The notes under the pieces are model-generated. The model worked only from the letters and a program-made list of their open reading frames with translations, had not been told where the DNA came from and ran no database searches. This document shows positions 539-20,166 of a DNA stretch of 64,000 bases, in pieces; the first letter of the stretch is position 1, and each line of letters begins with the position of its first letter. The translations under genes were made by a program, and so were the position numbers. Source of the stretch: Jezberella montanilacus (GTDB taxonomy: Bacteria; Pseudomonadota; Gammaproteobacteria; Burkholderiales; Burkholderiaceae_B); NCBI RefSeq assembly GCF_003003055.1, contig NZ_PVTV01000002.1, forward strand, positions 1 to 64,000. The letters are read 5' to 3'.

Positions 539-811
539 ATGATTGATAAAACCGTTGCAAAGACATTTCGATTCTCCGTTGGCCTCTACTCATTACTAGC
601 GTCAGAGTCAGAAAGACTAAAGACCTCAGAGGCTGATGTCGTTCGTCTTTCCCTTCGAAATTATTTTGATGATCGACAAAAAGATGACCAGCTGATGGTA
701 CTTGAGCAGCGCATAATCCAGCGATTAGATGCACAGTCCAGTCAGATAGTCTCGATGTTGCAGCAAGTGCTAGCACTTGCTCAGCCTCACGACGGAGACA
801 ATCATGCATAA
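539..811 (+). CDS. TrwA-like relaxosome accessory protein (ribbon-helix-helix)
   Basis: A 90-residue protein whose first half fits a ribbon-helix-helix DNA-binding fold (strand KTFRFSV, then helices ending in VVRLSLRNYF) and whose second half is a helical tail likely to oligomerise. In MOBF systems such a protein (TrwA in R388) binds oriT, helps the relaxase nick and stimulates the coupling protein. The start at 539 is chosen because AAGGAG lies at 526-531 with ideal spacing; an in-frame ATG at 509 has no such site. Its stop overlaps the start of the coupling-protein gene by 8 bp. The family is assigned from fold, size and gene order, not from strong sequence identity. Confidence 0.6.
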   Translation: MIDKTVAKTFRFSVGLYSLLASESERLKTSEADVVRLSLRNYFDDRQKDDQLMVLEQRIIQRLDAQSSQIVSMLQQVLALAQPHDGDNHA

Positions 812-3588: not shown

Positions 3589-6026
3589 TGTTGAGCCTAA
3601 AAGCAATAGGCGCGGCAAACTCTGACGTGGCCGCGTATTATGAGCAACTCGCACAAGATGACTATTACCAAGTTGGTCTTGAGCCCGCTGGCCAGTGGTT
3701 CGGCGAGCTTGCTAAAGACTTACTCCTATTTGGCGACGTTCAAAAGGGTCAGCTCCGAGCAATGTTTCAAGGGTTTCATCCTCTGACAAACGAGCCGTTA
3801 GCCAGCAATGCCGGCGCTCAGCATAAGGCGGGCTGGGATTTAACCTTTTCTGCACCCAAAAGCGTAAGTGTGCTTTGGGCAGTGGCGGACGTTGAAAAGC
3901 GTGAATTGTTCGCGGTTGCGCATGATGAGGCAGTGCGTTCGGCGATGGTCTATTTGCAAAGTAGGGCATTCTCAAGTCGCGACAGGCTGGGTGCCTCTAG
4001 CGTTGATAGATTGTTGGCAGCAGTATTTCAGCACGGCAGTAGTCGAGAGCTAGATCCTCAGTTGCACAGCCATGTGCTGGCCGCAAATTTGGCCGCACGT
4101 GGGGATGGGACGTTTTCAGCAATCGATTTTGATTCACGCTACAAAATGGCAGCTGGAGCGATTTACCGAGCGGAGCTTGCTTCGCGGTTAAAGCAGGCCG
4201 GTTATCAGATAGAGCGCGAGCAAAAGTCATTTCGAGTGACTGGTGTCGATCAGTCGGTGTGTGATAATTTTTCAAAACGGCGTAATCAGATCCTACAAAG
4301 CATGCAGGCCACGGGATATATCGGAGCTAAGGCTGCAAGCATTGCCGCCTTGGCGACTCGCGAAGCGAAAGTAGCCGTTGCGAGAGCTGGCTTGCATGAG
4401 GCTTGGCGTGAAGAGGCATCTGAGCTCGGGTTTGTCGGAGTATCGGTCACCGAGCAAAACACGTTGGGTAAGTCAGAGCCTAACGACAAGGTAGATATCG
4501 ATAGCGTCCTTCGTACGCTGACTGAGAGCTCTTCAACATTTACGATCATGCAACTCGAAGCCGCGCTTGCGATTGAGGCGCAGGGCCGACTTGGTGCAGC
4601 TCAGGTAGAAAAATTGATTGAGGACACCCTAATAAGTCGAGTCGCTGACCCGAGCAAAGTCGGGTTGATCGAGCTTCGGGATGGTAAGGAACAACGGCGT
4701 ACGACAACACGGTATACGACAAGAGAAATGCGGGACTTGGAGACTAGCCTGGTGGCCCAAGCAGCCTCACGTCAAACCGAAACCGAACATTCAGTGGACT
4801 GCGCTCAGGCTATAGCTGCATTTCCAACCTTAAGTGACGAACAACGGTTTGCCTTGAAGCACATTACCGAGTGTGTTGGTGCCGTCAAAGTTGTCCAGGG
4901 TATGGCGGGAACCGGAAAGTCCTATCTCTTGAGGGCTGCCAAGGATTGCTGGGAGCGGGCAGGCTATTCGGTTCTTGGAGCAGCGCTTGCCGGTAAGGCA
5001 GCTGATTCTCTTGAACAAGGCAGCGGCATCCCTAGCCAGACGCTGCATAGTCTTTTGCTACAACTTGATAAAGGGCAGAGAAAGTTAAACAGTTCGGATG
5101 TGGTGGTGTTAGATGAATCAGGGATGATAGGTAGTCGGCAGATGGAGCGACTGCTTTCACATGTTCATGAAGCTAGAGCTAAAGCGGTGCTAGTGGGTGA
5201 CTACATGCAACTTCAGCCAATCGATGCAGGGACAATATTCAGGGCTTTAGCTGAACGCTTAGGGAGCGTTAAATTAGAACAAATACGTAGGCAGGAGAAG
5301 TCAGCAGATCGTCAGATGATTCACGACGTCATTTCGGGAAGAACTAGCGAGGTTCTTACCGGCTTGCACGAACGTGGTCTGTTGCAGATACATTCAAAGA
5401 ATGACCTATTCAATAAGATGATTGCGATGTGGGATGAGCTGAGAGACATCGCTAACCCATCTGAAACTATGATGCTCGCTGGAACACGCGCGGAGGTCTA
5501 TCAGTTGAATCAATTGGCGCGGAATCGTCTGAAGGAGCAAAACGCCTTGCGCTCCGAAATAACCGTCAATACAGAAGCTGGAGAGCGTCAATTCGCGATC
5601 GGCGATAGAGTGGTTTTCACGAGAAATAACAAAGCAATCGCCGTAAAAAATGGTCAAACTGGCAGCCTAACTGGTTGGCAAATTAGTGCGCGAGGCGATA
5701 TTCAATTTACGGTTCAGACTGATTCCGGCAGGCAGGTTAGTTTTTCGTCAGGCAAATACAACCATCTTGATCATGGATATGCGTTATCCGTGCATAAGGC
5801 ACAGGGTCAGACGTTAGATAATGCTCTGATTATGTTGTCGGAATCGATGAGCGACCGGGAATGGGCTTATGTTGCTGCTAGCCGTCACAGACAGGAACTG
5901 CGTGTTTTCGCAGATCGTGATCAATCGGATCTGCTCAGCCTTATGCTTAGTCGTTCTCGCCCAAAAGACGTTACGCTGGATTACGTTCATCTTGACCAAG
6001 GATCGGATTTGGAGATGGATCGTTAG
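3588..6026 (+). CDS. MOBF conjugative relaxase-helicase, TrwC/TraI family
   Basis: An 812-residue bifunctional protein that nicks oriT, stays covalently bound to the 5' end and unwinds the strand. The N-terminal relaxase has the paired catalytic tyrosines (Y17/Y18 and Y26/Y27) at the spacing of TrwC. Its metal-binding histidine cluster lies near residues 148-162 (DPQLHSHV). The C-terminal helicase has Walker A GMAGTGKS near 438, Walker B VVVLDESGM near 503 and a late motif HKAQGQT. R388 TrwC is about 966 residues, so this is a compact member. Translation is probably coupled to the ArdC-like gene by a one-base overlap. All key residues appear intact. Confidence 0.95.
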   Translation: MLSLKAIGAANSDVAAYYEQLAQDDYYQVGLEPAGQWFGELAKDLLLFGDVQKGQLRAMFQGFHPLTNEPLASNAGAQHKAGWDLTFSAPKSVSVLWAVADVEKRELFAVAHDEAVRSAMVYLQSRAFSSRDRLGASSVDRLLAAVFQHGSSRELDPQLHSHVLAANLAARGDGTFSAIDFDSRYKMAAGAIYRAELASRLKQAGYQIEREQKSFRVTGVDQSVCDNFSKRRNQILQSMQATGYIGAKAASIAALATREAKVAVARAGLHEAWREEASELGFVGVSVTEQNTLGKSEPNDKVDIDSVLRTLTESSSTFTIMQLEAALAIEAQGRLGAAQVEKLIEDTLISRVADPSKVGLIELRDGKEQRRTTTRYTTREMRDLETSLVAQAASRQTETEHSVDCAQAIAAFPTLSDEQRFALKHITECVGAVKVVQGMAGTGKSYLLRAAKDCWERAGYSVLGAALAGKAADSLEQGSGIPSQTLHSLLLQLDKGQRKLNSSDVVVLDESGMIGSRQMERLLSHVHEARAKAVLVGDYMQLQPIDAGTIFRALAERLGSVKLEQIRRQEKSADRQMIHDVISGRTSEVLTGLHERGLLQIHSKNDLFNKMIAMWDELRDIANPSETMMLAGTRAEVYQLNQLARNRLKEQNALRSEITVNTEAGERQFAIGDRVVFTRNNKAIAVKNGQTGSLTGWQISARGDIQFTVQTDSGRQVSFSSGKYNHLDHGYALSVHKAQGQTLDNALIMLSESMSDREWAYVAASRHRQELRVFADRDQSDLLSLMLSRSRPKDVTLDYVHLDQGSDLEMDR

Positions 6027-6620: not shown

Positions 6621-7820
6621 TTGGATATGAATTTCATACATAGACGCCAACAATGGTCGGTCGGCCACGGTTTCTTTCACACAGCCACTATTGATATTGA
6701 GAGGTATTTATATCGTTACATATACGATTGTGGTGCTCAGCAAGGACGGGTAATAGAGCGCGAAATTGATCGATATGAAAAGAATGTAGACTTGGAGGGG
6801 AGTGGGAAGGAAATAGACATGTTAGTTATTTCACACTTCCATGCTGATCATATAAAGGGTATTCCAGAATTATTAAAGCGATTCAAAATAAAACATTTGG
6901 TAATTCCCTATTTGTCCGAAGAGGCAAAATCTTTAGTGTTGGCATACCTTGCAGCAATTGGTGTAGAGGAGTGGATTGTTTTTTCGAGTCTGATTCTCAC
7001 CCCTGAGGTTTGGCTAACCGATCTAGGATCCGATGCGCAACTTGTGCAAATTTCTGCTGAAAACGGCAATAGCTCGGATGAAGCTAGTATTCCACGTGCT
7101 GGAAATGGCCTATCAATTGGCATCGGAATCTCCAATCAGAGCACACCTAGTGCTATTTTTTTAGATGGTGTACCAATATGGCGATTTAAATTCCATGTAG
7201 AGGATAATTCACAGTATGTCGCAGCGATAGTTAAAGAGATTGCAACCGAACTGGCATTGAATGAGGCGCAGTTGAAGGCATGTTTACGAGATAACAAATG
7301 GATTAATGCCAATTGGGAAACTTTGAAAAAATGCTTTACTTCAATAGGAACTGCAAAACAAAATGCTACTAATCTTTCTATGTTCTCAGGACCTATTAAA
7401 GACATATATGTTGCACGCGCTACCTTCCAGCCCAATGAGAGGAATTTAGGCTGCCGGTGCTGTATGAGGGACGGAATAGGATGGTTAGGCACAGGTGATG
7501 CAAACTTGAAAACTTCAAAAGCATATACAGCTTTCGAGTCAAGTTTTAATAACTACTTGTCACAGATCGATACAGTCACAATTCCACATCATGGATCAAA
7601 GCATGATTACAACGCGAAAATTGGTGATTTGTGTATTCGGTATGTAATTACTTCAAATCACTTGATCGACCCCAAGGATAAACATCCGGCGAGCGAGGTA
7701 TTGGTGAATCTGAGGTCAAAGGGCGCTGCTATAGACATAGTGACCGATGACCCAAGCACCACGCAATTTGACAGTTTTTTTGGTTTCTTAAATTGTAAAA
7801 ACTACGTAACGGTCCGGTGA
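6621..7820 (+). CDS. MBL-fold metallohydrolase, ComEC/Rec2-type domain
   Basis: A 399-residue soluble protein with a metallo-beta-lactamase fold. The metal motif HFHADH is near residue 73, a later aspartate occurs in GTGDAN, and the PHHGS motif plus a distal histidine (DKHPASE) are those of the ComEC-type MBL domain. Two unusual clusters, GCRCC and the surrounding cysteines, may bind another metal. The start is TTG 6621, six bases after AGGGGA; ATG 6627 is the alternative. It has no signal peptide or membrane span, so it is not a full DNA-uptake protein; stand-alone relatives occur in mobile islands, where a nuclease or nucleotide hydrolase role is plausible. The last codons (VTVR, stop) lie inside an IS66-like terminal repeat, so the true C-terminus may have been lost. 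Confidence 0.8.
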   Translation: MDMNFIHRRQQWSVGHGFFHTATIDIERYLYRYIYDCGAQQGRVIEREIDRYEKNVDLEGSGKEIDMLVISHFHADHIKGIPELLKRFKIKHLVIPYLSEEAKSLVLAYLAAIGVEEWIVFSSLILTPEVWLTDLGSDAQLVQISAENGNSSDEASIPRAGNGLSIGIGISNQSTPSAIFLDGVPIWRFKFHVEDNSQYVAAIVKEIATELALNEAQLKACLRDNKWINANWETLKKCFTSIGTAKQNATNLSMFSGPIKDIYVARATFQPNERNLGCRCCMRDGIGWLGTGDANLKTSKAYTAFESSFNNYLSQIDTVTIPHHGSKHDYNAKIGDLCIRYVITSNHLIDPKDKHPASEVLVNLRSKGAAIDIVTDDPSTTQFDSFFGFLNCKNYVTVR

Positions 7821-8072: not shown

Positions 8073-8590
8073 AAATCTCTCTCAAATCTAGTCACCATAG
8101 CGTCCATTAAGTTCTTAATGGACACTTGAGATGATAGAAAAATCTATGCCTGCCTTAGGTTTGGACTGGATCGAGCCACTTAAACCTGTTCGCAAAAATC
8201 GCTCAGTTGAAGAAAAACGAAAAATCGTTTTTGAGTCATTATCTTCTGAAGCTTCGATTGCGGCGGTCGCTCGCGCCCATAACATCAACTCAAATTTACT
8301 ACATACTTGGCGCTGGCAATACCGTCGGGGTGAACTTGGCGAAAAAAGTGCTAACCCAAGTTTCGTGCCCGTTCAAATTGCAGCGCAGCCTGCTCCTATT
8401 AGCGCGCCTATACTCGGGGCGCACTTAGAGATTATTGTTGGCCCGGCAAAGGTCTTGGTTCACGGCACAGTGCCGGTTGAAACCCTCAGTGCGGTGCTCA
8501 GAGCATTGCATGTTCGCTTATTTTTAGGTTGACACCTATTCTGGCGAGATCATCGGAGAATGGCTAGTGCGTTGTTGACCGGACGCTTAC
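8047..8590 (+). mobile_element. Deleted IS66-family element carrying only tnpA
   Basis: The left end (8047-8067, GTAACGGTCCGGTCAGTACC...) and the inverted right end (8570-8590, reading GTAAGCGTCCGGTCAACAAC on the minus strand) match at 16 of 21 positions. Both start with the GTAA typical of IS66 ends. Between them lies only a tnpA frame; tnpB and the large tnpC transposase are absent, so the 544-bp unit cannot move by itself. The flanking octamers (GAACAAAG and ACCAAATG) are not a clear target-site duplication, so a later deletion or recombination is likely. Confidence 0.7.
8131..8532 (+). CDS. tnpA: IS66-family accessory protein TnpA (OrfA)
   Basis: The 133-residue product has an N-terminal helix-turn-helix (VEEKRKIV, then IAAVARAHNINSNLLHTWR) like IS66 TnpA. 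The C-terminal part is a small beta-rich tail (LEIIVGPAKVLVHG) also seen in that family. In complete IS66 elements it acts with TnpB and the DDE transposase TnpC, neither of which is here. It lies between the terminal repeats of the 544-bp element. It is probably full length but functionally orphaned. Confidence 0.85.
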   Translation: MIEKSMPALGLDWIEPLKPVRKNRSVEEKRKIVFESLSSEASIAAVARAHNINSNLLHTWRWQYRRGELGEKSANPSFVPVQIAAQPAPISAPILGAHLEIIVGPAKVLVHGTVPVETLSAVLRALHVRLFLG

Positions 8591-8659: not shown

Positions 8660-8689
8660 TTGCAATTCCAATATCCATATAGGTATAAT
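8660..8689 (+). promoter_or_regulatory. Predicted sigma-70 promoter of the defence cassette
   Basis: TTGCAA (8660-8665) and a perfect TATAAT (8684-8689) are 18 bp apart, about 30 bp upstream of the XRE regulator start. It lies outside the IS66 right end. The genes that follow on the plus strand to 18,920 have only short gaps, so this may drive the whole cassette under control of the regulator. Confidence 0.6.
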
Positions 8690-8719
8690 TTGCCATTGAT
8701 TCATGGAGTAAATGCAGCC

Positions 8720-9106
8720 ATGCCGAATCGTCGCCAAGTTAAGGAAGGTGGGCCTAAAAATACCCCGAATGCGCCCCGTGATCTCGTGCCCTTGTCATCT
8801 TTGGGACATGTGGGAAGTGGTCAATTGCTCAATGAGTTCTCTGATACAAGTCACGATGGATCGGTCAAAGCAACACTGGCATCCAGGCTCAACGCATTAC
8901 TTGATGAGAGTGGGCTAAGTCAAAGTGCAGCGGCGCAGTTGCTAGGGATGCCTCAGCCTAAAGTTTCAGCGATCAGAAACTACAAGCTTCGCGGGATTTC
9001 ATTGGAGCGCCTGATGCAGGCTCTCCTTGCGTTAAATCAGCAAGTCGAGATCGTCGTGAAGCCAGGTCGAAAAGCTGGTCATTGTTCAATTCGGGTTGCG
9101 GCCTGA
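8720..9106 (+). CDS. XRE-family HTH regulator (HigA-like)
   Basis: A 128-residue DNA-binding protein. The C-terminal half is an XRE helix-turn-helix (LNALLDESGLSQSAAAQLLG, then MPQPKVSAIRNYK) followed by the HigA-type tail ISLERLMQALLALNQQVEIVV. The N-terminal 55 residues are polar and probably disordered. ATG 8720 is preferred: it follows GGAG at 8705-8708 and the predicted promoter, while the longer frame from 8621 crosses that promoter. No toxin gene is adjacent. As first gene of a defence cassette it is probably the autoregulator, although an antitoxin that has lost its toxin is an alternative. Confidence 0.82.
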   Translation: MPNRRQVKEGGPKNTPNAPRDLVPLSSLGHVGSGQLLNEFSDTSHDGSVKATLASRLNALLDESGLSQSAAAQLLGMPQPKVSAIRNYKLRGISLERLMQALLALNQQVEIVVKPGRKAGHCSIRVAA

Positions 9107-9151
9107 GAAAGTACAGGGATACATGAATTTATTGTTGCGAGAGGTGGACAT

Positions 9152-10126
9152 ATGTCACGAGCTGACCTCATAGTTAGTCTCGTCAAAGCGGGGAGTCAGG
9201 GCGATCAGCAACTGTTGCGCACGACCGTGGAAGCGATGGCGGCGGAAGAGCGTGCCAAGCATCATCACCAGCTTGCTGACAAGCTTGAAGAAAATCTGCA
9301 GGCTGCTAACGGGCGACCACGCGCACCGGAGGTTGTACGTTCATTTGACGGCGGTCATGGCGGCTTACTGTATGAAGTGGAGCCACGCCGTGCCCTCGAA
9401 GCATTGTTTCTGGAAAGCTCGACACTTGAGGCATGCCGCGAACTGGTGGAAGAGCAGCATCGCAAGGACATCCTGCGTTCTTATGGCTTGGAGCCAAGGA
9501 ATCGTGTGTTGCTTTCTGGTCCTCCTGGCAATGGTAAGACTTCGCTCGCCGAAGCGATCGCTGCGCAGTTGCTCGTGCCACTCTTTGTCGTGCGTTATGA
9601 AGCGGTTATTGGCAGTTTCTTGGGTGAAACCAGTGGCCGATTGAAGCGTTTGTTTGACTTTGTTCGGACGCACCAATGCGTGCTGTTTTTCGACGAGTTC
9701 GACACGCTTGGCAAGGAACGCGGCGATGTCCACGAAACCGGGGAAATCAAGCGTGTTGTCAGTTCGCTCCTGCTTCAGATCGACGCTTTGCCTAGTCATG
9801 TCGTGGTCGTGACCGCCACCAATCATGCTGAATTGCTTGACCGCGCTGTTTGGCGGCGGTTTCAGTTGCGGCTCTCGTTGCCTGCGCCGACTCTCGCGCA
9901 GAAAGAAGAATGGTTCACGCGATTTCAGGCTCGCCTGGATGCCCCGCTCGGCTTCTCCCCGAAAACCTTGGCTGCAAAGATTCAAGCTTCCAGTTTTTCA
10001 GACTTGGAGCAGTTTTGTGAGGACATCCAGCGTCGCTACGTTTTGGCTCTTCCTGATTCGAATCTGAAGCGCATCGTGACGGCACGACTCAAGCAATGGC
10101 AAGCGCGATTTACCATCAACCAATAA
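9152..10126 (+). CDS. AAA+ ATPase partner of the S8 protease
   Basis: A 324-residue single-domain AAA+ ATPase. Walker A GPPGNGKT is at residues 123-130, Walker B LFFDEFD near 178, sensor 1 in VTATNHAELLDRA, and an arginine finger candidate in WRRF. The first 110 residues are helical and charged, and may be the substrate or protease contact. ATG 9152 follows GAGAGGTGG. The next gene, 27 bp downstream, is a subtilisin-like protease; paired AAA+/S8 genes recur in bacterial defence islands, where the ATPase is thought to gate or feed the protease. Substrate and trigger cannot be read from the sequence. Confidence 0.9.
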   Translation: MSRADLIVSLVKAGSQGDQQLLRTTVEAMAAEERAKHHHQLADKLEENLQAANGRPRAPEVVRSFDGGHGGLLYEVEPRRALEALFLESSTLEACRELVEEQHRKDILRSYGLEPRNRVLLSGPPGNGKTSLAEAIAAQLLVPLFVVRYEAVIGSFLGETSGRLKRLFDFVRTHQCVLFFDEFDTLGKERGDVHETGEIKRVVSSLLLQIDALPSHVVVVTATNHAELLDRAVWRRFQLRLSLPAPTLAQKEEWFTRFQARLDAPLGFSPKTLAAKIQASSFSDLEQFCEDIQRRYVLALPDSNLKRIVTARLKQWQARFTINQ

Positions 10127-10153
10127 CAAACAATAACAAGGGATGGTCAACGG

Positions 10154-12748
10154 ATGGCAACAGGAAATTTCCCACTTCTATTTTTTCCCGAACCGACACC
10201 CGCTGATCGAAACCTCCTCCCCGGCGGAGGAGGCAAGGTGCATATTCCTGATATTGCACGCCAGCGTTCTCGCATCGCCCCACAGCTCACCGTGCTGCAA
10301 CAGGCTTTCGATGCACAACGCCTAAAGCTGCAACAGACGGCGCCGATGGAGAACCCAGAACTGATCCTGGTTCTGGAAGTTGCGGGCACGGTGGAGGACT
10401 TCGCCAAGGCCGTTGCGAAGATACCTGGACTGGAATGGCTCGTTGAATGGGCTGAGGACCAAATTACGCCGGACAACGATTTTTTCATCCAAGGCAAGGA
10501 AGACAAGGCTTTTTCGGGACGCCTGTTCTTGCTTGCGAGCAATCAGGCGGCGCTCACGCAGTTGCTGTCGCTTTGGACCCGTTACCAGAATGACCCTGCC
10601 GCGCAGTTCGATCGAGGACTGAATAAGTTTCGCAACATGTTTGGACAGTTGCGCAATATTCGCCATTGGAGCGTAGCGGACCGTATTGATCAAGATGTTC
10701 GCCAGTATTGGCAGAACTGTATCGACGATGGCTTGCAGGTTATCCGGTTTGAGATCGAGGCGTGGTGCTTCGTCTCACAGCAGAAGAATGACGCGGCCCG
10801 TTCGGAAATCGAGACTCTGGTCCAAAGTCTTGGCGGGCAGATTCTGCGTCGTGCGCTGATTGGCGAGATCGCCTACCACGGGTTTCTTGTGGAGTTGCCT
10901 GCGCAAGCCGTTACCCGTGTCATGGCTGGCGAGACGCCTGAGTTGGTGTTGTCCGACCGAATCATGTTCTTCCGGCCCAAAGCGCAATCAATAACGGATG
11001 GCGTGAACGAGGCAGATGTATTTCCGCAAGCTGTGGCGGCTGGAGTCTCAGAGCTGCCGCCGGTCGTAGCACTGCTCGACGGGTTGCCTTTGCAGAATCA
11101 TGCGCAGCTACAAGGGCGGCTGCTGGTGGATGACCCAGATGGCTGGGAAGGAAACTACGCGGCCAAGGACCGGGTTCACGGCACTGCCATGGCCTCTCTG
11201 ATTTTGCACGGCGAATTGGACGGTGCCGCCGAACCTCTGCAACGTCGCCTCTATGTGCGCCCCGTCCTGCGTCCTGATTCCAATGACAACTTCAACGCGC
11301 GCCGGCGCGAACACACGCCGGACGATGTATTGCTGATCGACTTGATTCACCGAGCAGTCAAACGCATTTGCGTGGGAGAAGGTCAGGAGCCTGCAGTAGC
11401 TCCGTCGGTGCGTGTCATCAACTTGTCGATCGGCGACGAAGCTCGCTTGTTTGAACGCCAGATGTCACCGTGGGCGCGCCTGCTGGACTGGCTTTCGTTC
11501 CGGTATTCCGTGCTGTTCATTGTTAGTGCGGGTAACGACATGCGGCCACTGAGTCTGGATACGCCGAGTCATACTTTGGAAGGACTGACAGCCGAACAGC
11601 GATCAGCATTGGCATTCACTGCGATGACCACCGAGCATGCAGAGCGGCGTCTGCTGGCGCCTGCGGAGGCACTGAATGTGCTGACTGTCGGTGCCTTGCA
11701 CGCCGACCAGGCAAATCCGCCCGTGGTGCCAGGCCGCTACGACCTCTTCCAGGCCGGTGGGCTCAGCCCGCTGTCGCGGGTTGGGCATGGTTTCCGTCGA
11801 GCCATCAAACCGGACATCCTGATGCCGGGAGGGCGTGTGCTTTATCGCGCAAGGATGCAGGCCAATCCCGCCGCAAGTGTGCTGGATGCCGTAACGGCAG
11901 GAGTGGCACCAGGCCATCGCGTTGCGGTACCTCCGCTACAAGGTGAAACACTGGCCGCAACCGCGTACACGCGGGGCACCAGCAACGCCGCTGCGCTTGC
12001 CAGTCGAGCTGCCGTGCAAGCCTATGACATGCTCGAATCGCTGCGTGCCGAGGCGGAGGACGCGCCGGGAAGCGTATACGACGCGGTGCTGCTCAAAGCA
12101 TTGTTGGTTCATGGCGCGCAATGGGGCGACTGGCCGGAACGGCTGCTGGCGGAACATCCCGAGTTCGAGTCCATCCATGGCGTCGCGAGGCATGCGGCCC
12201 AGAAGGACTTGGTGACGCGATGGCTAGGGTACGGTCCCGTTGATGTCGAGCGGGCGATTAGCTGTGCGGCCGAGCGCGCAACGTTGCTTGGTGTAGGAGA
12301 GTTGGGTGCGGATGAGGCCTTTGTGTTTTCTGCACCGCTGCCACCGACATTGGCCGGCAAGATTGCGTGGCGTCGTTTAACGGTGACATTGGCATGGATG
12401 TCACCAATCAACTGTACACATCAGGGCTATCGCCGCGCCAAACTCTGGATAACGCCGCCGCAAGACCAGCTTCGAATCAAGCGAATGAACAGTGTGCATG
12501 ACAAGGCCGCACTACGCGGCTCTGTACAGCACGAAATTCTTGAGGGTGAGGATGCAGTTGCATTTGTCGATGGCAACCGGTTCGAGTGCAAGGTTAATTG
12601 TGCGGCTGACGCCGGTGACCTTACGGGAAAAATTCGGTTTGCAGTTTGTGTTTCTCTTGAGGTGGGAATCGGATCAGGTATTCCGGTGTACCAGGAGATT
12701 CGCGACAGAATTAGGCCGCCGGTCATCATTCAACCTGCTGCGGGGTAG
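10154..12748 (+). CDS. Subtilisin-like (S8) serine protease, AAA+ associated
   Basis: An 864-residue cytoplasmic protein (no signal peptide). An N-terminal domain of about 290 residues of unknown fold precedes an S8 peptidase domain. The triad is intact: Asp309 in VALLDGL, His342 in VHGTAMA and Ser610 in GTSNAAA. The interval between His and Ser is long for the family and holds insertions. A beta-rich C-terminal domain follows from about residue 690. It lies directly after its AAA+ partner and 70 bp before the methyltransferase gene. A cytoplasmic protease with a dedicated ATPase next to restriction-type genes suggests regulated proteolysis on phage infection. That role is inference; the enzyme class is clear. 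Confidence 0.9.
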   Translation: MATGNFPLLFFPEPTPADRNLLPGGGGKVHIPDIARQRSRIAPQLTVLQQAFDAQRLKLQQTAPMENPELILVLEVAGTVEDFAKAVAKIPGLEWLVEWAEDQITPDNDFFIQGKEDKAFSGRLFLLASNQAALTQLLSLWTRYQNDPAAQFDRGLNKFRNMFGQLRNIRHWSVADRIDQDVRQYWQNCIDDGLQVIRFEIEAWCFVSQQKNDAARSEIETLVQSLGGQILRRALIGEIAYHGFLVELPAQAVTRVMAGETPELVLSDRIMFFRPKAQSITDGVNEADVFPQAVAAGVSELPPVVALLDGLPLQNHAQLQGRLLVDDPDGWEGNYAAKDRVHGTAMASLILHGELDGAAEPLQRRLYVRPVLRPDSNDNFNARRREHTPDDVLLIDLIHRAVKRICVGEGQEPAVAPSVRVINLSIGDEARLFERQMSPWARLLDWLSFRYSVLFIVSAGNDMRPLSLDTPSHTLEGLTAEQRSALAFTAMTTEHAERRLLAPAEALNVLTVGALHADQANPPVVPGRYDLFQAGGLSPLSRVGHGFRRAIKPDILMPGGRVLYRARMQANPAASVLDAVTAGVAPGHRVAVPPLQGETLAATAYTRGTSNAAALASRAAVQAYDMLESLRAEAEDAPGSVYDAVLLKALLVHGAQWGDWPERLLAEHPEFESIHGVARHAAQKDLVTRWLGYGPVDVERAISCAAERATLLGVGELGADEAFVFSAPLPPTLAGKIAWRRLTVTLAWMSPINCTHQGYRRAKLWITPPQDQLRIKRMNSVHDKAALRGSVQHEILEGEDAVAFVDGNRFECKVNCAADAGDLTGKIRFAVCVSLEVGIGSGIPVYQEIRDRIRPPVIIQPAAG

Positions 12749-12818
12749 AAGTGCAACGAAGAAGAATAAATATGTGTGACGCAATGAAAGCAATGATGCC
12801 ACGTAGGCAAGATACCCC

Positions 12819-15620
12819 ATGAATGCAGTAGAAATCGAAGCAGCCATATCGGAACTAGCTTTGCAGCCCTTCGACGCGGCAGAGTTCCCATTCGCGTTCC
12901 TGGCCGCTTTCGGTAATAAGGACACGGCCCTCAGTCGCCTGCGTGCAGGCAACAACAACACCTCGGATGTGTCTGGTGGCGTGCTCCAGCGGAACAACAT
13001 CCATATCGCCGTGTGCGATGTCGGCACCGTAGGCGAAACCCTCAAGGCATTGCGCACCAGCCCGGCCACTACAAAAGCCAAGGCCAAATTTATCCTCGCC
13101 ACTGACGGGCAGACGCTTGAGGCCGAAGACCTGACTGGCGGCGAAACCAAGACCTGCGACTATCCGGACTTCCCCAACCACTTCGGCTTCTTCCTGCCGC
13201 TGGCCGGTATCTCCACCATCAAGGAGATCAAGGACAACCCCATCGACGTGCGCGCGACCGGGCGCATGAACAAGCTGTACGTCGAATTGCTGCGCGAAAA
13301 CCCGGACTGGGCCACGAACGAGCGTCGCCACGACATGAACCATTTCATGGCGCGCTTGATTTTCTGTTTTTTTGCCGATGGTACCGATATCTTCAACGGC
13401 ACCGGCCTGTTCATCCAGACCGTAGAGCAGATGGGTGAGCGCGATGGCTCCAATACCCATGCTGTGTTGGAAACTATCTTCCGCGCCATGAATATCAAGA
13501 TTGCCGAGCGCGCCAATGCCCAACCTCGTTTGCCGAACTGGGCCAATGGCTTCCCCTATGTGAATGGTGGCCTGTTCTCCGGCAGTACCGACGTGCCACG
13601 CTTCACGCGCATGGCGCGCACCTACCTGCTGCACGCGGGCGGACTGAAATGGAGAGAGATCAACCCGGACATCTTCGGCAGCATGATCCAGGCTGTGGCC
13701 GACGACGAAGAGCGCGGTGCCTTGGGCATGCACTACACCAGCGTGCCAAACATCCTGAAAGTGTTGAGCCCCTTGTTCCTGGATGAGCTGCGCGCGCAGT
13801 TGACCGAAGCCGGTGATAACGAGCGCAAGCTATTGAATCTGCGCAAACGCATGGCGCGTATCCGCGTGTTCGATCCGGCTTGCGGTTCCGGCAACTTCCT
13901 AGTGATCGCCTACAAACAGATGCGCGAGATCGAGGCGGAAATCAACCGCCGCAGGGGAGAACTCCATCTGGGCAGCGAGATTCCGTTAACCAACTTTCGG
14001 GGTATTGAGTTGCGCGATTTTCCGGCTGAGATTGCGCGCCTGGCGCTCATCATTGCCGAGTTCCAATGCGATGTGCTGTATCGCGGGCAGAAGGATGCTC
14101 TGGCGGAGTTTTTGCCGCTGGATGCACAGAACTGGATTGTTTGTGGGAATGCGCTGCGGCTGGATTGGTTAAGCATCTGCCCGCCCACAGGCACGGGCGT
14201 AAAACTGGTGGCTGATGATTTGTTTAGCGCACCGCTCAATCAGACAAAAATCGACTTCGAGAACGAAGGTGGAGAGACGTATATTTGTGGCAATCCGCCG
14301 TATCTTGGCTCCACTTGGCAGACTGATGAACAGAAGGCTGACTTGGAGGCCATTTTCACCACGCGTACCAAGAACTGGAAATCTCTTGATTATGTGGCGG
14401 GTTGGTTCATGAAGGCCGCAGACTACGGAACTAAGACCAAAGCCGCCGCCGCGTTTGTGTCCACCAATTCAATTTGCCAAGGGCAGCAAGTGCCCATTCT
14501 CTGGCCATTGGTCTTTGCTACGGGGCACGAGATTGCCTTTGCCTATACTTCCTTCAAGTGGACGAATCTTGCCAGCCACAACGCTGGTGTGACCGTGATC
14601 ATTGTTGGTATTGCCAGCTTTGCGCAGAGAAATCGAAAACTGTTCTCGGTATCTGAAGACGGGAATGTCAACGCCAAAGAAGTTGACAATATCAATGCCT
14701 ACTTGGTGGCGGGGAAGCAAGTGGTCGTTGAGAAGTCAGCAAAGCCCCTCACGAGTATTTCTGAAATGATGTTCGGTAGTAAGCCAGTAGATGGCGGACA
14801 TCTATTATTTTCACAAGATGAGCTGGAATCGCTTGGGCTAAGCCAGCAAGACAAAGAGCGATTTATCCGTCCGATAGTTGGGTCCGAAGAATTCATCGGC
14901 GGGAAGCAGCGTTTTTGTATCTGGATAGAGGATGAAGACGCAGCTTATGCCCACGCACATCCTGTCATTGGACCGCGCCTGCAGATGGTCCGTTCAATGA
15001 GGTTGAGCAGCACCAAACTTGCGACGCAGCGGGGCGCAGAATGGTCGCATCGGTTCGACGAGCGACGCCAAACGGGCGATGAGACAGTGGTGATTGTCCC
15101 GAGCGTTTCCTCTGAGTCACGCGATTACCTTCCAGTTGGGTATATGCCCAAGGGGACGATCATTAGTAACCTGGCATTCGCCCTCTACGACGCCCCGCTC
15201 TGGAACATGGCTCTTATTGCTTCCCGACTGCATTTGATTTGGATTGGCACTGTCTGCGGCAAACTCGAAACGCGTTATCGCTATTCCAACACCATTGGAT
15301 GGAATACTTTCCCAGTGCCGCTACTCACCGAGCAGAACAGGGATGACCTTACCACATGCGCCGAGGACATCCTGCTGGCGCGCGACGCGCATTTTCCTGC
15401 CACCATTGCCGATTTGTACAACCCGGTCAATATGCCAGACAACCTGCGCCGCGCGCACGAACGTAACGATGAAGTGCTGGAGCGCATCTACATCGGCCGC
15501 CGCTTCAAGAACGATACCGAGCGATTGGAAAAACTGTTTGAGCTTTATACGAAGATGACGTCTGCAACAGGCAAGGCAAAGCCTGCAATAAAAGCAACAA
15601 GGGAGAAGAAAGCATCATGA
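12819..15620 (+). CDS. MmeI/YeeA-like class I DNA adenine methyltransferase
   Basis: A 933-residue N6-adenine DNA methyltransferase of the MmeI/YeeA type. The AdoMet motif FDPACGSGNF starts near residue 351 and the catalytic NPPY is at 492-495. The C-terminal 350 residues should contain the target-recognition and spacer domains. The N-terminal 160 residues occupy the place of the MmeI nuclease, but I see no clear PD-ExK signature, so it may only methylate. The stop overlaps the helicase start (ATGA). Methyltransferase, helicase and T5orf172 nuclease in this order match Bacillus subtilis yeeA-yeeB-yeeC, a restriction-like arrangement in which cleavage would be supplied by the third protein. 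Confidence 0.9.
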   Translation: MNAVEIEAAISELALQPFDAAEFPFAFLAAFGNKDTALSRLRAGNNNTSDVSGGVLQRNNIHIAVCDVGTVGETLKALRTSPATTKAKAKFILATDGQTLEAEDLTGGETKTCDYPDFPNHFGFFLPLAGISTIKEIKDNPIDVRATGRMNKLYVELLRENPDWATNERRHDMNHFMARLIFCFFADGTDIFNGTGLFIQTVEQMGERDGSNTHAVLETIFRAMNIKIAERANAQPRLPNWANGFPYVNGGLFSGSTDVPRFTRMARTYLLHAGGLKWREINPDIFGSMIQAVADDEERGALGMHYTSVPNILKVLSPLFLDELRAQLTEAGDNERKLLNLRKRMARIRVFDPACGSGNFLVIAYKQMREIEAEINRRRGELHLGSEIPLTNFRGIELRDFPAEIARLALIIAEFQCDVLYRGQKDALAEFLPLDAQNWIVCGNALRLDWLSICPPTGTGVKLVADDLFSAPLNQTKIDFENEGGETYICGNPPYLGSTWQTDEQKADLEAIFTTRTKNWKSLDYVAGWFMKAADYGTKTKAAAAFVSTNSICQGQQVPILWPLVFATGHEIAFAYTSFKWTNLASHNAGVTVIIVGIASFAQRNRKLFSVSEDGNVNAKEVDNINAYLVAGKQVVVEKSAKPLTSISEMMFGSKPVDGGHLLFSQDELESLGLSQQDKERFIRPIVGSEEFIGGKQRFCIWIEDEDAAYAHAHPVIGPRLQMVRSMRLSSTKLATQRGAEWSHRFDERRQTGDETVVIVPSVSSESRDYLPVGYMPKGTIISNLAFALYDAPLWNMALIASRLHLIWIGTVCGKLETRYRYSNTIGWNTFPVPLLTEQNRDDLTTCAEDILLARDAHFPATIADLYNPVNMPDNLRRAHERNDEVLERIYIGRRFKNDTERLEKLFELYTKMTSATGKAKPAIKATREKKAS

Positions 15621-17737
15621 GCGAGCAAGTCAGCAACCCGACCAACGCTTACACCGTTCCATCGGTGTCCATCGCCACGGCGCGCACGGGCGCTTCTAGC
15701 AAAGCCAACGCGCTGGGGATGCGCGCGATGCAGGAGCGCGCTTATGCCAAGCGTGGCGAACAGTATCTGCTGATCAAATCGCCACCGGCATCAGGCAAAT
15801 CTCGTGCGCTGATGTTCATCGCGCTGGACAAGCTCAACAACCAGGGCCTGCAGCAGGCCATTGTCGTAGTGCCTGAGCGATCCATTGGCGGCAGCTTTGC
15901 TGATGAACCCCTGAGTCAGCAGGGATTCTATTGGGATTGGCAGGTGGCGCCACAGTGGAACCTGTGCAACGCGCCTGGTGTGGACGAGCCGCGCGTGGCG
16001 AAGTCCAAGGTAGATGCCGTGCGCAAGTTCCTTGAAAGCACTGACAAGGTGCTAGTCTGCACCCATGCTACCTTTCGCTTTGCGGTGGAAGAGTTGGGTG
16101 TCCAAGCGTTCGATAACCGCCTGATCGCCATTGACGAGTTCCACCACGTCTCCAGCAACCCGGACAACAAGCTGGGTAGTCAGTTGGGCGCGTTCATCGT
16201 CCGTGACAAGGTGCATCTGGTGGCCATGACCGGCTCCTATTTCCGTGGCGACAGTGAGGCAGTTTTGGGTCCGGCGGATGAGTCCAGATTCGAGACGATC
16301 ACTTACACCTACTACGAGCAGCTCAACGGCTATCGTTGGCTCAAGTCACTGGACATCGGCTACTTCTTCTACACAGGCCCTTACGTTAATGCCATCGCCA
16401 AGGTCTTGGACCCGGCACTGAAAACCATCGTCCATATTCCCAATGTGAATGCCCGTGAAAGCCTCAAAGACAAGGAGCGCGAGGTGAATGAAATCATGCA
16501 CGGTTTGGGTGAATGGAAAGGTGTCGACCCGGCCACCGGCTTCCATCTGGTGCAGGCCCATGATGGACGTACTCTGAAAGTAGCGGACTTGGTGGACGAC
16601 AGCGATCCAGCCAGACGCTCCAAAGTGCTCACTGCGTTGAAAGACCCGACGCAGAAGAACAATCGCGACAGTGTGGATGTGATCATTGCGCTTGGCATGG
16701 CGAAGGAAGGCTTTGACTGGATTTGGTGCGAACATGCATTGACTATTGGCTACCGCAGCAGCCTGACTGAAATCGTGCAGATCATTGGCCGCGCCACTCG
16801 TGATGCTGAGGGCAAGGAGCGATCGCGCTTCACTAACCTGATCGCAGAACCTGCGGCCGAACAATCCGCCGTAGCCGAAGCTGTTAACGACATGCTCAAA
16901 GCCATTTCTGCCAGCCTGCTGATGGAACAGGTACTGGCCCCGCGCTATGAGTTCACCCCCAAAAACGCTGGCCCGAAGGAAGGCTTCAATTACGGCGAGG
17001 ATGGCTACAAGGAGGGTGGACACAACATCGGTGTAAATCAGGAAACAGGCCAGTATCACGTGGAGATCAATGGGCTGACAACTCCACAAAGCTCGGAAGC
17101 TACGCGCATCTGCAAGGAAGATTTGAACGAAGTCGTCACCAGTTTCTTGCAGGACAAGACTGTGCTGGAGCGCGGCCTGTTCGACAAGGAAAACACCCTG
17201 CCCGAAGAGATAACCCAGCTACGCATGGGCAAGATAGTGCGGGAGCGTTACCCGGACTTGAGCGAGACCGACCAGGAGGCTATCCGACAACACGCCGTCG
17301 CCGCCATGAACATCACCCAGCAGGCCAAATTGGCGTTGGCCCAGGCCGATGCCAACGGGAGCGGCACGGCGCAGGGCAATACGGCGTTGCTGGATGGGGT
17401 GCGAAAATTCGTCAATGTGCGTGACCTGGACATTGACCTGATCGACCGCATCAATCCCTTCGATGCCGCCTATGCGGTGCTGGCGAAAGCAATGGATGAG
17501 AAATCGCTGCGCCAAGTTCAGGCCAGCATTGCCGCCAAGAAGGTGAGCATTCCTGAAGATGAAGCCCGTGAGCTGGCCAAACGCGCCTTGCAGTTCAAGA
17601 ATGAGCGTGGCCGCCTGCCAGATATCAACTCTGCCGATGCATGGGAAAAACGCATGGCCGAAGGCGTGGCGTCTCTGGCCCGTTACCGTGCGCAGGTCAA
17701 GGCAACGCAGGTGCAAGGAGAGTCCGGCAATGGCTGA
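15617..17737 (+). CDS. DEAD/DEAH-box helicase, YeeB-like
   Basis: A 706-residue superfamily 2 helicase. Motif I is SPPASGKS (residues 55-62), motif II is DEFHH (from 173) and motif VI is QIIGRATRD (from 388). The C-terminal 270 residues are mostly helical and unlike core helicase domains. It overlaps both neighbours by a few bases, so the three proteins are probably made in fixed ratio. In the restriction-like reading it would translocate or remodel DNA for the methyltransferase and nuclease. Confidence 0.9.
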   Translation: MSEQVSNPTNAYTVPSVSIATARTGASSKANALGMRAMQERAYAKRGEQYLLIKSPPASGKSRALMFIALDKLNNQGLQQAIVVVPERSIGGSFADEPLSQQGFYWDWQVAPQWNLCNAPGVDEPRVAKSKVDAVRKFLESTDKVLVCTHATFRFAVEELGVQAFDNRLIAIDEFHHVSSNPDNKLGSQLGAFIVRDKVHLVAMTGSYFRGDSEAVLGPADESRFETITYTYYEQLNGYRWLKSLDIGYFFYTGPYVNAIAKVLDPALKTIVHIPNVNARESLKDKEREVNEIMHGLGEWKGVDPATGFHLVQAHDGRTLKVADLVDDSDPARRSKVLTALKDPTQKNNRDSVDVIIALGMAKEGFDWIWCEHALTIGYRSSLTEIVQIIGRATRDAEGKERSRFTNLIAEPAAEQSAVAEAVNDMLKAISASLLMEQVLAPRYEFTPKNAGPKEGFNYGEDGYKEGGHNIGVNQETGQYHVEINGLTTPQSSEATRICKEDLNEVVTSFLQDKTVLERGLFDKENTLPEEITQLRMGKIVRERYPDLSETDQEAIRQHAVAAMNITQQAKLALAQADANGSGTAQGNTALLDGVRKFVNVRDLDIDLIDRINPFDAAYAVLAKAMDEKSLRQVQASIAAKKVSIPEDEARELAKRALQFKNERGRLPDINSADAWEKRMAEGVASLARYRAQVKATQVQGESGNG

Positions 17738-18920
17738 TATGAATGATGACGAGTTGCTGGATGCTCTGGGGGTAGAAGTCACCCCACTCAAGGCCTCCAG
17801 CCGCACCCCGCGTGAGGAACGAATCATTGCGGGTTTTGAGGATATTCTGCGATTCCATCAGGCCCATGGCCGCGCCCCGCTGCATGGCGAGGAACGTGAC
17901 ATCTTCGAGCGCCTGTGTGCCGTGCGTCTGGATCAACTACGCAAGTTGCCGGAAGCGAAAACCCTGCTGGCTGGGCTGGATAGTCCTGGCCTCTTGGCTG
18001 GTGTGGCAACCACCTCGGCAAATGTGGATGACTTGGACGAAGACGCCTTGCTAGCCGAACTGGGTATTGGCCATGAACCCGCCGACCAAAACGACATCAC
18101 CGTGCTACGCCATGTACGTTCCAGCACTGAAAAGCGTGCGGCGGAGGAAATCGCAGACCGTACATCATGTGCGGATTTTGACAAGTTCGAATCGCTGTTT
18201 GAGCAGGTGGAGCGGGAGCTGAAGTCTGGCATTCGAATAACGTTGCGCTTCGGACGCGACACAAGCATTGCCAATGGAAACTACTTCATCGTCGGCGGGC
18301 AGCTCGCCTATGTCGCTGAAACCGGCGAAACCATCAAGGCTCCGAATGGCGAAAGTGATGCGCGTCTACGCGTCATTTACGCCAACGGTACTGAAAGTAA
18401 TTTGCTACGGCGCTCGCTACAGCGGGCGCTCTATAAGGACGACACTGGCCGCCGCCTGACCGACCCGGACATGGGGCCACTGTTTGGCGATGCGCCGGAG
18501 CCTGATGATATTGAAACCGGAACCATCTATGTGCTGCGCAGCCTGTCCAATCATCCATTCATCGCCGAGCACCGTGAACTGATCCACAAGATCGGCGTAA
18601 CCGGCGGCAAGGTGGAGACTCGCATCACAGGCGCTGAAAAAGATGCCACTTATTTGCTGGCCGACGTGGAGGTGGTTGCCACCTACAAGCTGCACAACTT
18701 GAACCGCACGAGGCTGGAAAACATCTTCCACCGCTTATTCGGCGCAGCGCAGCTCGACTTGACCATCGAAGACCGCTTTGGACATCCGGTCAAGCCGAGG
18801 GAATGGTTCCTGGTGCCACTCCATGTGATTGACGAAGCGGTTCTGCGTATTCGGGGTGGATCGATTACCGAGGTGGTCTATAACCCGACGACGGCACGGC
18901 TGGTAGATCCCAAGACATGA
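17730..18920 (+). CDS. GIY-YIG nuclease family protein (T5orf172/MUG113), YeeC-like
   Basis: A 396-residue protein. The C-terminal third (about 265-370) is a T5orf172-type GIY-YIG nuclease domain: TIYVLRS, then HKIGVTGG with the invariant Arg region, and the catalytic glutamate in LENIFHRLF. The N-terminal 250 residues contain acidic stretches (DLDEDALLAELG) and no recognised fold. ATG 17730 follows AAGGAG and overlaps the helicase stop; the frame extends further upstream only inside the helicase gene. It is the best candidate for the DNA-cutting subunit of the methyltransferase-helicase-nuclease set. Confidence 0.87.
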   Translation: MADMNDDELLDALGVEVTPLKASSRTPREERIIAGFEDILRFHQAHGRAPLHGEERDIFERLCAVRLDQLRKLPEAKTLLAGLDSPGLLAGVATTSANVDDLDEDALLAELGIGHEPADQNDITVLRHVRSSTEKRAAEEIADRTSCADFDKFESLFEQVERELKSGIRITLRFGRDTSIANGNYFIVGGQLAYVAETGETIKAPNGESDARLRVIYANGTESNLLRRSLQRALYKDDTGRRLTDPDMGPLFGDAPEPDDIETGTIYVLRSLSNHPFIAEHRELIHKIGVTGGKVETRITGAEKDATYLLADVEVVATYKLHNLNRTRLENIFHRLFGAAQLDLTIEDRFGHPVKPREWFLVPLHVIDEAVLRIRGGSITEVVYNPTTARLVDPKT

Positions 18921-18961: not shown

Positions 18962-19474
18962 TCACTCGGTGTACACCCCTTTGGCTTCGTTGGCATATAG
19001 CTGGTAGAACCGTTCAGCCCTAGACGGTGCCTCGGGAAAGAAGCCGTCATCATCTTCATGCGATAGCAGGTAGTCGTGAAGGTAAGCGACGCTCTGTCGG
19101 GCGACCCGCAATCTGGGGATTTGCATTATTTCGTCGAGATCGAGGTGTGCGACAAACTTGTCGCGGTATGTCCGCATATCATTGATGTAGGCCTCAAACT
19201 GATCCTCGGTTAACCGTAGCGTTCTAAGCATGTCGTTTAAGAACGCGTTTTGGTCTGTCACAACCTTCCGCCAGTGATGTTTGCCCCGGCCATCCGCGAA
19301 TAGTTTGCACCATTCAAGGACGCAATGGTCCAAAAAGTTACCGTTCGCAGTTACCCAGAATTGGCTCTTGCGGCGAGCTACACGGTTTCGCCAGCCTGCT
19401 TTATAAAAAGCCAAATTTCTGAGAAAGTGGCAACACAAAATCAACGCCCGCCGAACCCGTTCTCTGCGCGTCAT
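18962..19474 (-). CDS. AbiU2/HEPN-like protein
   Basis: A helical protein of about 170 residues with the pattern R-D-K-F-V-A-H (R-x5-H) in a helix, the catalytic signature of HEPN ribonucleases, as in the AbiU2 group. HEPN proteins act as RNase toxins in abortive infection. ATG 19474 is used; TTG 19498, which overlaps the upstream gene, is possible. It runs opposite to the methyltransferase cassette and ends 41 bp from it. The gene upstream (19482-19811) is on the same strand and overlaps the longer reading, so the two probably form an operon. The toxin role is inference. Confidence 0.7.
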   Translation of the reverse strand: MTRRERVRRALILCCHFLRNLAFYKAGWRNRVARRKSQFWVTANGNFLDHCVLEWCKLFADGRGKHHWRKVVTDQNAFLNDMLRTLRLTEDQFEAYINDMRTYRDKFVAHLDLDEIMQIPRLRVARQSVAYLHDYLLSHEDDDGFFPEAPSRAERFYQLYANEAKGVYTE

Positions 19475-19481
19475 AACGAAC

Positions 19482-19811
19482 TTATCGGGTCGTAGCAATG
19501 GTGCTTGTCATGGCGGCATCCAAATCAGCAAGACTAAATATCTCAAGTTGAGCAGCCGGACTGCGTTGCTCAACGGGGGTGAGCGCCAAGCCGACGTTAT
19601 TGATTGCAAGGGTAAAAAACCGGACCCCAAAGGCTCCGATCGCACTTGCCAGCATAGACAATTCCCATGCATCAGGTCGAATGTCACCGTGCACTAGATC
19701 ATCAATCGCGCGACTAATCACCGTGACTGCCCATTCCCGTTTCTGGACATCGTCAAGAACTATCCAAGCTCCGTCAATTGGGCACCCATCAAAGATTGCG
19801 CGCCCATCCAT
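19482..19811 (-). CDS. Unrecognised protein upstream of the HEPN-like gene
   Basis: A 109-residue protein I do not recognise. It has a mixed alpha/beta pattern with a central hydrophobic stretch (LASAIGAFGVRFFTLAI) that is probably a buried helix and no signal peptide. ATG 19811 is chosen because AAGGGAG lies just upstream; the longer frame from 19844 has no such site. Being first in a two-gene unit with a HEPN-like protein, it could be its antidote or sensor. Confidence 0.55.
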   Translation of the reverse strand: MDGRAIFDGCPIDGAWIVLDDVQKREWAVTVISRAIDDLVHGDIRPDAWELSMLASAIGAFGVRFFTLAINNVGLALTPVEQRSPAAQLEIFSLADLDAAMTSTIATTR

Positions 19812-20166
19812 GTTTTTCTCCCTTTGAAAACCACGGTATGACATTGCACCCTAACGCTGGGGTTTGGGTTCAATTGTTGGGTGAATTGCCATGGCTCTTG
19901 TGGATGCCCGTTGGTTTAAGTCATTGCACGTGGAACAAACTGTAACCAACCGATGACCGATCATCGCTGAACGGGTAAACGTATCCTAAGTTAACTGGGA
20001 TTATAAGTAGAGTTTTCTCACCTACGCCTCTACGCACTAGATAAATTCTTATATAAATTTCTTCAATACACCCAATGGGTGTATTTATTTCTGTACAATC
20101 GAAAGAGCGTAATGTGCACGCAAGACTTCTTCCCCCGCAGGCTGAGGATTTTGACGGAAAAAAATT
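19812..20166. other. Divergent intergenic region with operator
   Basis: It separates the minus-strand HEPN pair from the plus-strand HTH gene. No gene is seen. It becomes strongly AT-rich between 20,000 and 20,100 and holds the palindrome at 20,065-20,085 and a TACAAT -10 candidate at 20,094-20,099, placing a promoter for the HTH gene here. Confidence 0.6.
20065..20085. promoter_or_regulatory. Palindromic operator before the HTH gene
   Basis: Ten-base arms (AATACACCCA and TGGGTGTATT) match perfectly around a single central base. The site sits where the -35 region of the TACAAT promoter (20,094-20,099) should be, so a bound repressor would block transcription. The obvious candidate is the HTH protein encoded 80 bp downstream (autorepression). 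Confidence 0.65.

Follow-up and report, generated by a model that had tools for sequence, protein, structure and literature searches.

The stretch considered here, positions 1 to 64,000 of contig NZ_PVTV01000002.1 of Jezberella montanilacus (the window, 64,000 nucleotides), carries a run of six genes that we take, with moderate confidence, to be a composite, layered defence cassette: a module of a regulator (REG), IetA and IetS stands in front of a YeeA-YeeB-YeeC module, and both would be served by one upstream promoter. This reading is based on the gene content, on the active-site residues, on a joint shared by three Burkholderiales genomes, and on the absence from that joint of the DNA that precedes the nearest stand-alone yeeA genes. 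Co-transcription, the loss of a promoter by yeeA, methylation, restriction, toxicity and the layering itself are what we infer beyond this. The parts of the cassette are:

8660..8689, + strand: promoter-like site TTGCAA-18-TATAAT ahead of the cassette, 10/12 match to the consensus.
8720..9106, + strand: REG, HTH_37 regulator (Pfam PF13744, E=5e-19).
9152..10126, + strand: IetA, AAA+ ATPase, antitoxin-type partner (PADLOC PDLC04232, 507 bits over 1-321; Walker A and B motifs).
10154..12748, + strand: IetS, S8 subtilase, toxin-type protease (PADLOC PDLC04233, 1073 bits over 1-859; PF00082; residues D309, H342, N461 and S610).
12749..12818, + strand: IetS-yeeA junction, common to the window, locus L017 and, about 90 nt longer, locus L021.
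12819..15620, + strand: YeeA/DnmA-like, MmeI-family DNA methyltransferase, carrying all five Pfam MmeI domains (PF20464/20465/20473/20466/20467).
14712..15323, + strand: target-recognition domain of the methyltransferase (PF20466, residues 632-835; DNA identity profile).
15617..17737, + strand: YeeB-like SF2 helicase (PF00270; motifs; 65% to a plasmid protein annotated YeeB, NC_019327.1).
17730..18920, + strand: YeeC-like T5orf172/GIY-YIG nuclease (PF10544, PF13455; active-site residues).

The original prediction, made from the sequence alone, had placed six genes of these kinds in this order on one strand, with gaps of at most 70 bp and overlaps in the second half. Open reading frames (ORFs) together with Pfam and PADLOC matches confirm the order and the domains, and the spacing is as close as was claimed: 45 bp between REG and IetA, 27 bp between IetA and IetS, 70 bp between IetS and yeeA, a 4-nt overlap of yeeA and yeeB, and an 8-nt overlap of the helicase gene with the GIY-YIG gene, which starts at ATG 17730, not 17559. 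The REG frame opens at GTG 8621, but its likely start is ATG 8720, because the promoter-like site falls within the longer frame. A match to REG lies 5' of IetA in eight of nine loci whose IetS is at least 70% identical (L017-L024, not L045), whether yeeABC is present or absent. As for the single strong promoter that had been proposed, the site at 8660 is indeed the top match, but the promoter scan as a whole returned 5 sites against 5.2 expected from shuffles. The same scan, in general no better than shuffles, gave no promoter match in the 70-bp gap between IetS and yeeA.

Judged by its sequence, the front half is a divergent branch of IetAS. Its scores fall far under the NCBIfam cut-offs (221 of 510 bits for IteA NF042959, 79 of 900 bits for IteS NF042956), and therefore the pair is assigned to such a branch and not to those equivalogs. 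IetA has an intact Walker A motif (GPPGNGKT) and Walker B motif (FFDEFD), and the four IetS residues listed above are invariant in 22/22 aligned homologues. An AlphaFold2 model of IetS (mean pLDDT 83.5) has a subtilisin core with additional domains and matches subtilisins; it weakly suggests a possible built-in propeptide-like domain. Gao et al. 2020 are said to have described an anti-phage role of IetAS. In a pair from Salmonella Genomic Island 1 (SGI1) that is similar to pTiC58 IetS/IetA, the subtilase is the toxin and the AAA+ protein the antitoxin (PMC5006074). Toxin-antitoxin or anti-phage activity, known for relatives only, is suggested for the window pair by analogy. In two other loci (L005, L137), the IetS genes are seemingly broken into pieces.

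The back half, an MmeI-like methyltransferase followed by an SF2 helicase and a T5orf172/GIY-YIG protein on one strand, has the DnmA-YeeB-YeeC arrangement by domains and order. The methyltransferase contains the motifs DPACGSG and NPPY. Its phmmer alignment with MmeI (5hr4) starts at MmeI residue 108 and leaves the nuclease part of MmeI unaligned, although Pfam MmeI_N still matches its residues 1-159; E-x-K sites occur in residues 1-200 only at 109 and 136. The helicase has the motifs PASGKS and DEFH, and the GIY-YIG residues Y267, G289, R298 and E330 are invariant in 7/7 aligned sequences. The dnmA-yeeB-yeeC genes form a conserved cluster: V. crassostreae became more sensitive to some phages on deletion of dnmA and of yeeB, and single deletions in the B. 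subtilis cluster had no effect with three phages (PMC9973331).

Stand-alone YeeABC modules have additional content of their own. In L010, L104, L106, L108-L111, L113 and L116, the yeeA match is separated from the yeeB match by about 0.9-2.4 kb, and in L010 this interval holds a gene annotated as a PDDEXK nuclease; YeeABC thus seems to have its own cargo site between yeeA and yeeB. In L009 and L013, VapC/PIN-type genes, another toxin-antitoxin pair preceding YeeABC, lie 98 and 76 bp ahead of yeeA on the same strand.

Besides the window, IetS is followed by yeeA in three loci: L017, where the contig (G148) ends inside yeeA; L021, from Undibacterium griseum (contig G243); and L062, from the alphaproteobacterium Afipia massiliensis. 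The junction DNA behind IetS in L017 is 97% identical to that of the window over 100 nt, and the longer junction of L021 shares two homologous blocks with it (86% and 89%). Only the final 14-26 nt ahead of yeeA correspond to the leaders of its nearest stand-alone counterparts (L010, L104, L106, L109), and the DNA further upstream of these genes, which differs among them, is absent from the window joint. The shared junction DNA and the missing stand-alone upstream DNA therefore argue that the IetS-yeeA fusion probably happened once in this Burkholderiales lineage and that yeeA probably lost its own promoter in the process.

The joint also persisted while the recognition region of the methyltransferase changed. 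In 300-base bins, the window and L017 are 80% identical in the first bin and 92-100% from 8900 to 14000, after which identity falls from 86% to 72% and then 55% inside the methyltransferase. With L021, most bins give 77-94% (74% in the first, 70% at 15200, 69% in the last), and DNA identity in the recognition region, at 14300-15200, is 48-56%. The joint has thus been kept through a change of the recognition region. The Afipia union, more distant from the window (IetS 40%, YeeB 48%), agrees with it in gene order and strand and has a gap of about 140 bp, but no junction similar to that of the window, L017 and L021; it therefore represents a separate event. Gene order and strand agree in all four unions seen, and their gaps range from 70 to about 160 bp; the union looks like more than an accident of one genome.

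In the model that we favour, read-through from the upstream promoter would carry transcription across both modules. YeeA would mark host DNA by adenine methylation, and YeeB and YeeC would move along unmarked DNA and cut it, the GIY-YIG domain taking the place of the nuclease that in MmeI is part of the methyltransferase chain. IetA would keep IetS in check until infection or loss of the cassette freed the protease, leading to degradation of proteins and a stop in cell growth. Restriction would thus act as a first layer and protease-mediated arrest or killing as the layer behind it, with additive protection; the toxin-antitoxin pair would in addition make the cell addicted to the cassette. Because of the common promoter, the layers would be inherited together.

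Several findings weigh against this picture. In trees of YeeB and of YeeC, the window and L021 do not group together, stand-alone modules lying just as close; the back half has therefore probably recombined, or the history is more complex. The composite is also rare, as yeeA follows IetS in only 3 of the best 80 of 118 genome loci. In 399 Burkholderiales genomes, YeeB was found in 28, IetS in 9 and both in 2 (that of the window and G243), a further IetS genome, G148, being the source of L017. Co-occurrence at the level of the genome is not significant (2/9 IetS genomes with YeeB versus 28/399; Fisher p=0.13), so that at this level it is compatible with chance and only adjacency is enriched. 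In the family of Afipia, IetS is present in 11/296 genomes, and YeeABC in 0/10 of the other IetS genomes within the stretch examined.

Plasmids and viruses give a similar result. Among 72,556 plasmids, 71 records contain an IetS relative and 264 a YeeB relative, with no accession common to the matches listed (60 of 71 and 60 of 264). A DNA query spanning both halves, which can miss distant IetS DNA, matched 189 plasmid records; none of the 189 covers 80% of the query, and the 15 matches listed all begin after IetS. No YeeABC was found in the stretch examined of five IetS plasmid loci (the record of L002 ends 0.7 kb behind IetS), and no IetAS in nine YeeB plasmid loci or in 18 other Burkholderiales YeeB loci. 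In none of seven viral IetS loci does yeeA come after IetS. The two halves, then, mostly live apart.

This separation is what would be expected if the two modules were simply neighbours in a defence island, standing side by side and sharing nothing except an address. Other IetAS relatives are followed by unrelated partners, such as a TIR protein (L024) or a HEPN protein (L075), or by none, and AbiE likewise has long same-strand genes behind it, so that operon-like joining is not special to IetAS. However, plain neighbourhood accounts poorly for a joint kept in three genomes and for the agreement of four unions in order, strand and close spacing, and we regard it as improbable. The original prediction, which saw in the union of the halves one system, is upheld as far as an operon-like composite is concerned, with its joint in three genomes and a separate union in Afipia. 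The search for co-occurrence in distant genomes that it proposed gave the Burkholderiales and Afipia unions. It had also held that independent occurrence of the halves in most genomes, or a match to a named system, would speak against it; in part this is what was seen, as the halves are apart in most of the genomes and plasmids searched and each had already been described.

Elsewhere, IetAS also borders or is embedded in other operons built around DNA modification, and this wider pattern lends a functional link unexpected support. In a scan of 87 IetS loci, where other neighbours of IetS were left untyped and counts are consequently lower bounds, at least five kinds of operon (YeeABC, type I, type III-like, Hma and BREX-3-like) have IetAS next to or within them on the same strand, mostly within 300 bp. 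The type I restriction-modification (R-M) cases are L038 (HsdM-x-HsdS-IetAS-HsdR), L148 (IetAS-HsdM-S-R), L043 (three ORFs between) and the short contigs L039 and L049, the gene behind L049 IetS being known by clustering only. Hma-like sets are found at L047 and L054, BREX-3-like sets at L035 and L041 (one 0.4-kb gap; DUF6079, PglXI, helicase and PglZ typed across both loci), a type III-like R-M set at L056, and other methyltransferase sets at L023, L091 and L147. Together with the three YeeABC loci, modification-type neighbours occur in at least 14/87 loci, and in 2/16 further loci (L146 among them repeats L027). The set behind IetAS in L023 (12801-20384) consists of a UvrD/PDDEXK protein, an N6_N4 methyltransferase and a ResIII protein with a TnsA-like end, a restriction set to which no name is assigned.

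The pattern is most marked directly downstream of the protease. When same-strand genes of at least 250 residues within 300 bp of IetS were considered, a methyltransferase motif was present in 6/17 genes straight after IetS versus 14/557 others in the same loci (Fisher p=8e-6; p=8e-5 without L017), and in 2/18 genes upstream of IetAS (p=0.09). These p values are too small, because near relatives are not independent, and the motif count is crude, with several, but not all, of the methyltransferases confirmed by Pfam or PADLOC. For a control, 40 AbiE places were picked by hand from the better-scoring rows, others being skipped (several of them near a contig end); the 37 that gave an ORF yielded the motif in 0/9 genes downstream, 1/8 upstream and 5/113 elsewhere. 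Set against this, the downstream count for IetAS is 8/22 (17 genes scanned and 5 counted by eye, leaving out L137, where the next ORF is the second half of the broken IetS; p=0.04), a weak contrast in view of different sample origins, relatives that are not independent, and a single control family. Furthermore, of the nine genes behind AbiE, three are untyped and encode 1039-1072 residues, so that AbiE may also precede restriction subunits.

A guard mechanism would explain why one protease pair accompanies unrelated methyl-directed systems. In such a mechanism, IetS would be silenced by intact YeeABC, or by IetA bound to YeeABC, and released when a phage anti-restriction factor disabled YeeABC, killing the cell; PrrC, which lies beside a type I R-M enzyme, provides the precedent (PMC2610378). 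The range of operons joined by IetAS and the excess of methyltransferase motifs behind IetS both favour it. However, no restriction-type gene was recognised in the same-strand run of IetS in 73/87 loci, not all of whose neighbours were typed, which indicates that IetAS does without one, and the partners are so unrelated in sequence that a specific interface is hard to picture. We consider a guard mechanism unlikely. A broader proposal, which we put forward tentatively and consider unlikely, is that IetAS may serve modification-based immunity in general as a plug-in protease arm that the condition of the restriction machinery switches on or off, with the window as a stable, transferable example. 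IetAS would then have been recruited repeatedly into operons of the five kinds named above, often right before the methyltransferase, as a protease counterpart of PrrC, and the DNA recognition domain would change while the protease half stayed nearly identical.

Two other forms of coupling are much harder to support. The original prediction offered, as one example, protease activation on sensing unmodified DNA, which would have a YeeABC complex on such DNA switch on IetS; the operon-like joining, as well as the methyltransferase that comes first behind IetS in several partners, would suit this idea. A relative of the front half nevertheless works alone as a toxin-antitoxin pair on vectors (PMC5006074), and no fusion linking the halves was seen, making such sensing very improbable. 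IetA/IetS might instead serve as a safety valve: by degrading YeeB or YeeC it would ease self-restriction, much as ClpXP acts on HsdR. An AAA+/protease pair beside restriction subunits would be well placed for this, and ClpXP is known to alleviate restriction by EcoKI (PMC11109961, PMC12255303). Proteases of the IetS type, however, are toxic alone and held in check by their AAA+ partner (PMC5006074), whereas in a safety valve the ATPase would feed the protease, and we give this explanation very little credence. The composite, layered cassette thus remains the preferred reading.

If the link between the halves is functional, the condition of an adjoining methyl-directed restriction system becomes a candidate trigger for IetS, for which a described trigger was not found; YeeABC, reported as inactive in B. 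subtilis, would have a partner whose presence may account for when modules of this type are active. Should there be no direct coupling, the cassette would still be a clean case of two defences under one promoter, inherited as a unit, with a junction that is visible to the base.

The surroundings of the cassette in the window hold the following:

777-6026, + strand: upstream genes for a TrwB-type coupling protein, an ArdC-like anti-restriction protein and a TrwC relaxase.
6621-7820, + strand: upstream gene for a metallo-beta-lactamase-fold protein with partial PADLOC matches to LmuA and PDC-M48B.
8131-8532, + strand: ORF of transposase type with a helix-turn-helix domain (HTH_Tnp_1), directly ahead of REG.
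18962-19844, - strand: HEPN AbiU2-like gene (just below the Pfam cut-off) and a small overlapping partner ORF, facing the cassette; possibly a toxin-antitoxin pair.

Given the Trw-type genes and the ArdC-like gene, the cassette is probably part of an element that is conjugative or mobilisable and that encodes anti-restriction as well.

The cassette as a whole corresponds to no single named six-gene system, since no one label spans the set in the PADLOC, Pfam and NCBIfam scans. Full-length PADLOC matches across the six genes are only to IetA, IetS and REase_MTase_IIG; matches to DrmMI, PglX and PbeA are partial or weak, and the genes that define BREX, DISARM or Hma (PglZ with BrxC, DrmAB or HmaABC) are not among the six. 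The original prediction was thus right that the set as a unit has no name, but both halves are described systems (IetAS; DnmA-YeeB-YeeC, PMC9973331). Like IetAS of pTiC58 (IetA/IetS) and SGI1 (SgiA/SgiT), the window has an AAA+ ATPase and then an S8 subtilase that match PADLOC models nearly full length; it differs in the HTH_37 regulator in front, the restriction module behind, and scores under the NCBIfam cut-offs. The remaining genes share the methyltransferase, SF2 helicase and T5orf172/GIY-YIG order of DnmA(YeeA)-YeeB-YeeC of B. subtilis and V. crassostreae, matched by domains, but are placed behind IetAS and lack the extra DNA or gene that several stand-alone relatives have between yeeA and yeeB. 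With the single-chain type IIL R-M enzyme MmeI, the window shares the methyltransferase, spacer and recognition domains, whereas its nuclease and helicase are separate genes.

No paper joining IetAS with YeeABC was recognised in searches of the open-licence literature, judged mostly by title and the start of the abstract, and in the available text of a BREX survey (PMC12839542) "subtilisin" is not mentioned, its two mentions of "peptidase" and four of "protease" being unrelated to IetAS. The embedding of one defence in another is a published theme (PMC12255303, PMC12629846, PMC12988326). As in DarTG2 or PrrC within type I R-M systems and Septu in Hma, one module in the window is joined to the operon of another, but IetAS lies upstream of yeeA-yeeB-yeeC and not between core genes (PMC12255303, PMC12629846). 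True embedding of IetAS between the genes of a host operon is seen in L038 (type I), L047 (Hma-like) and L035 (BREX-3-like). A 2024 preprint by Payne et al., cited in PMC12255303, PMC12629846, PMC12755874 and PMC12988326, reportedly deals with embedded defence systems, and the embedding of IetAS may already be in its data. Taken together, both modules and the habit of embedding were already known, and what appears to be new is the pairing of IetAS with YeeABC, with the weight mostly on the wider pattern of IetAS.

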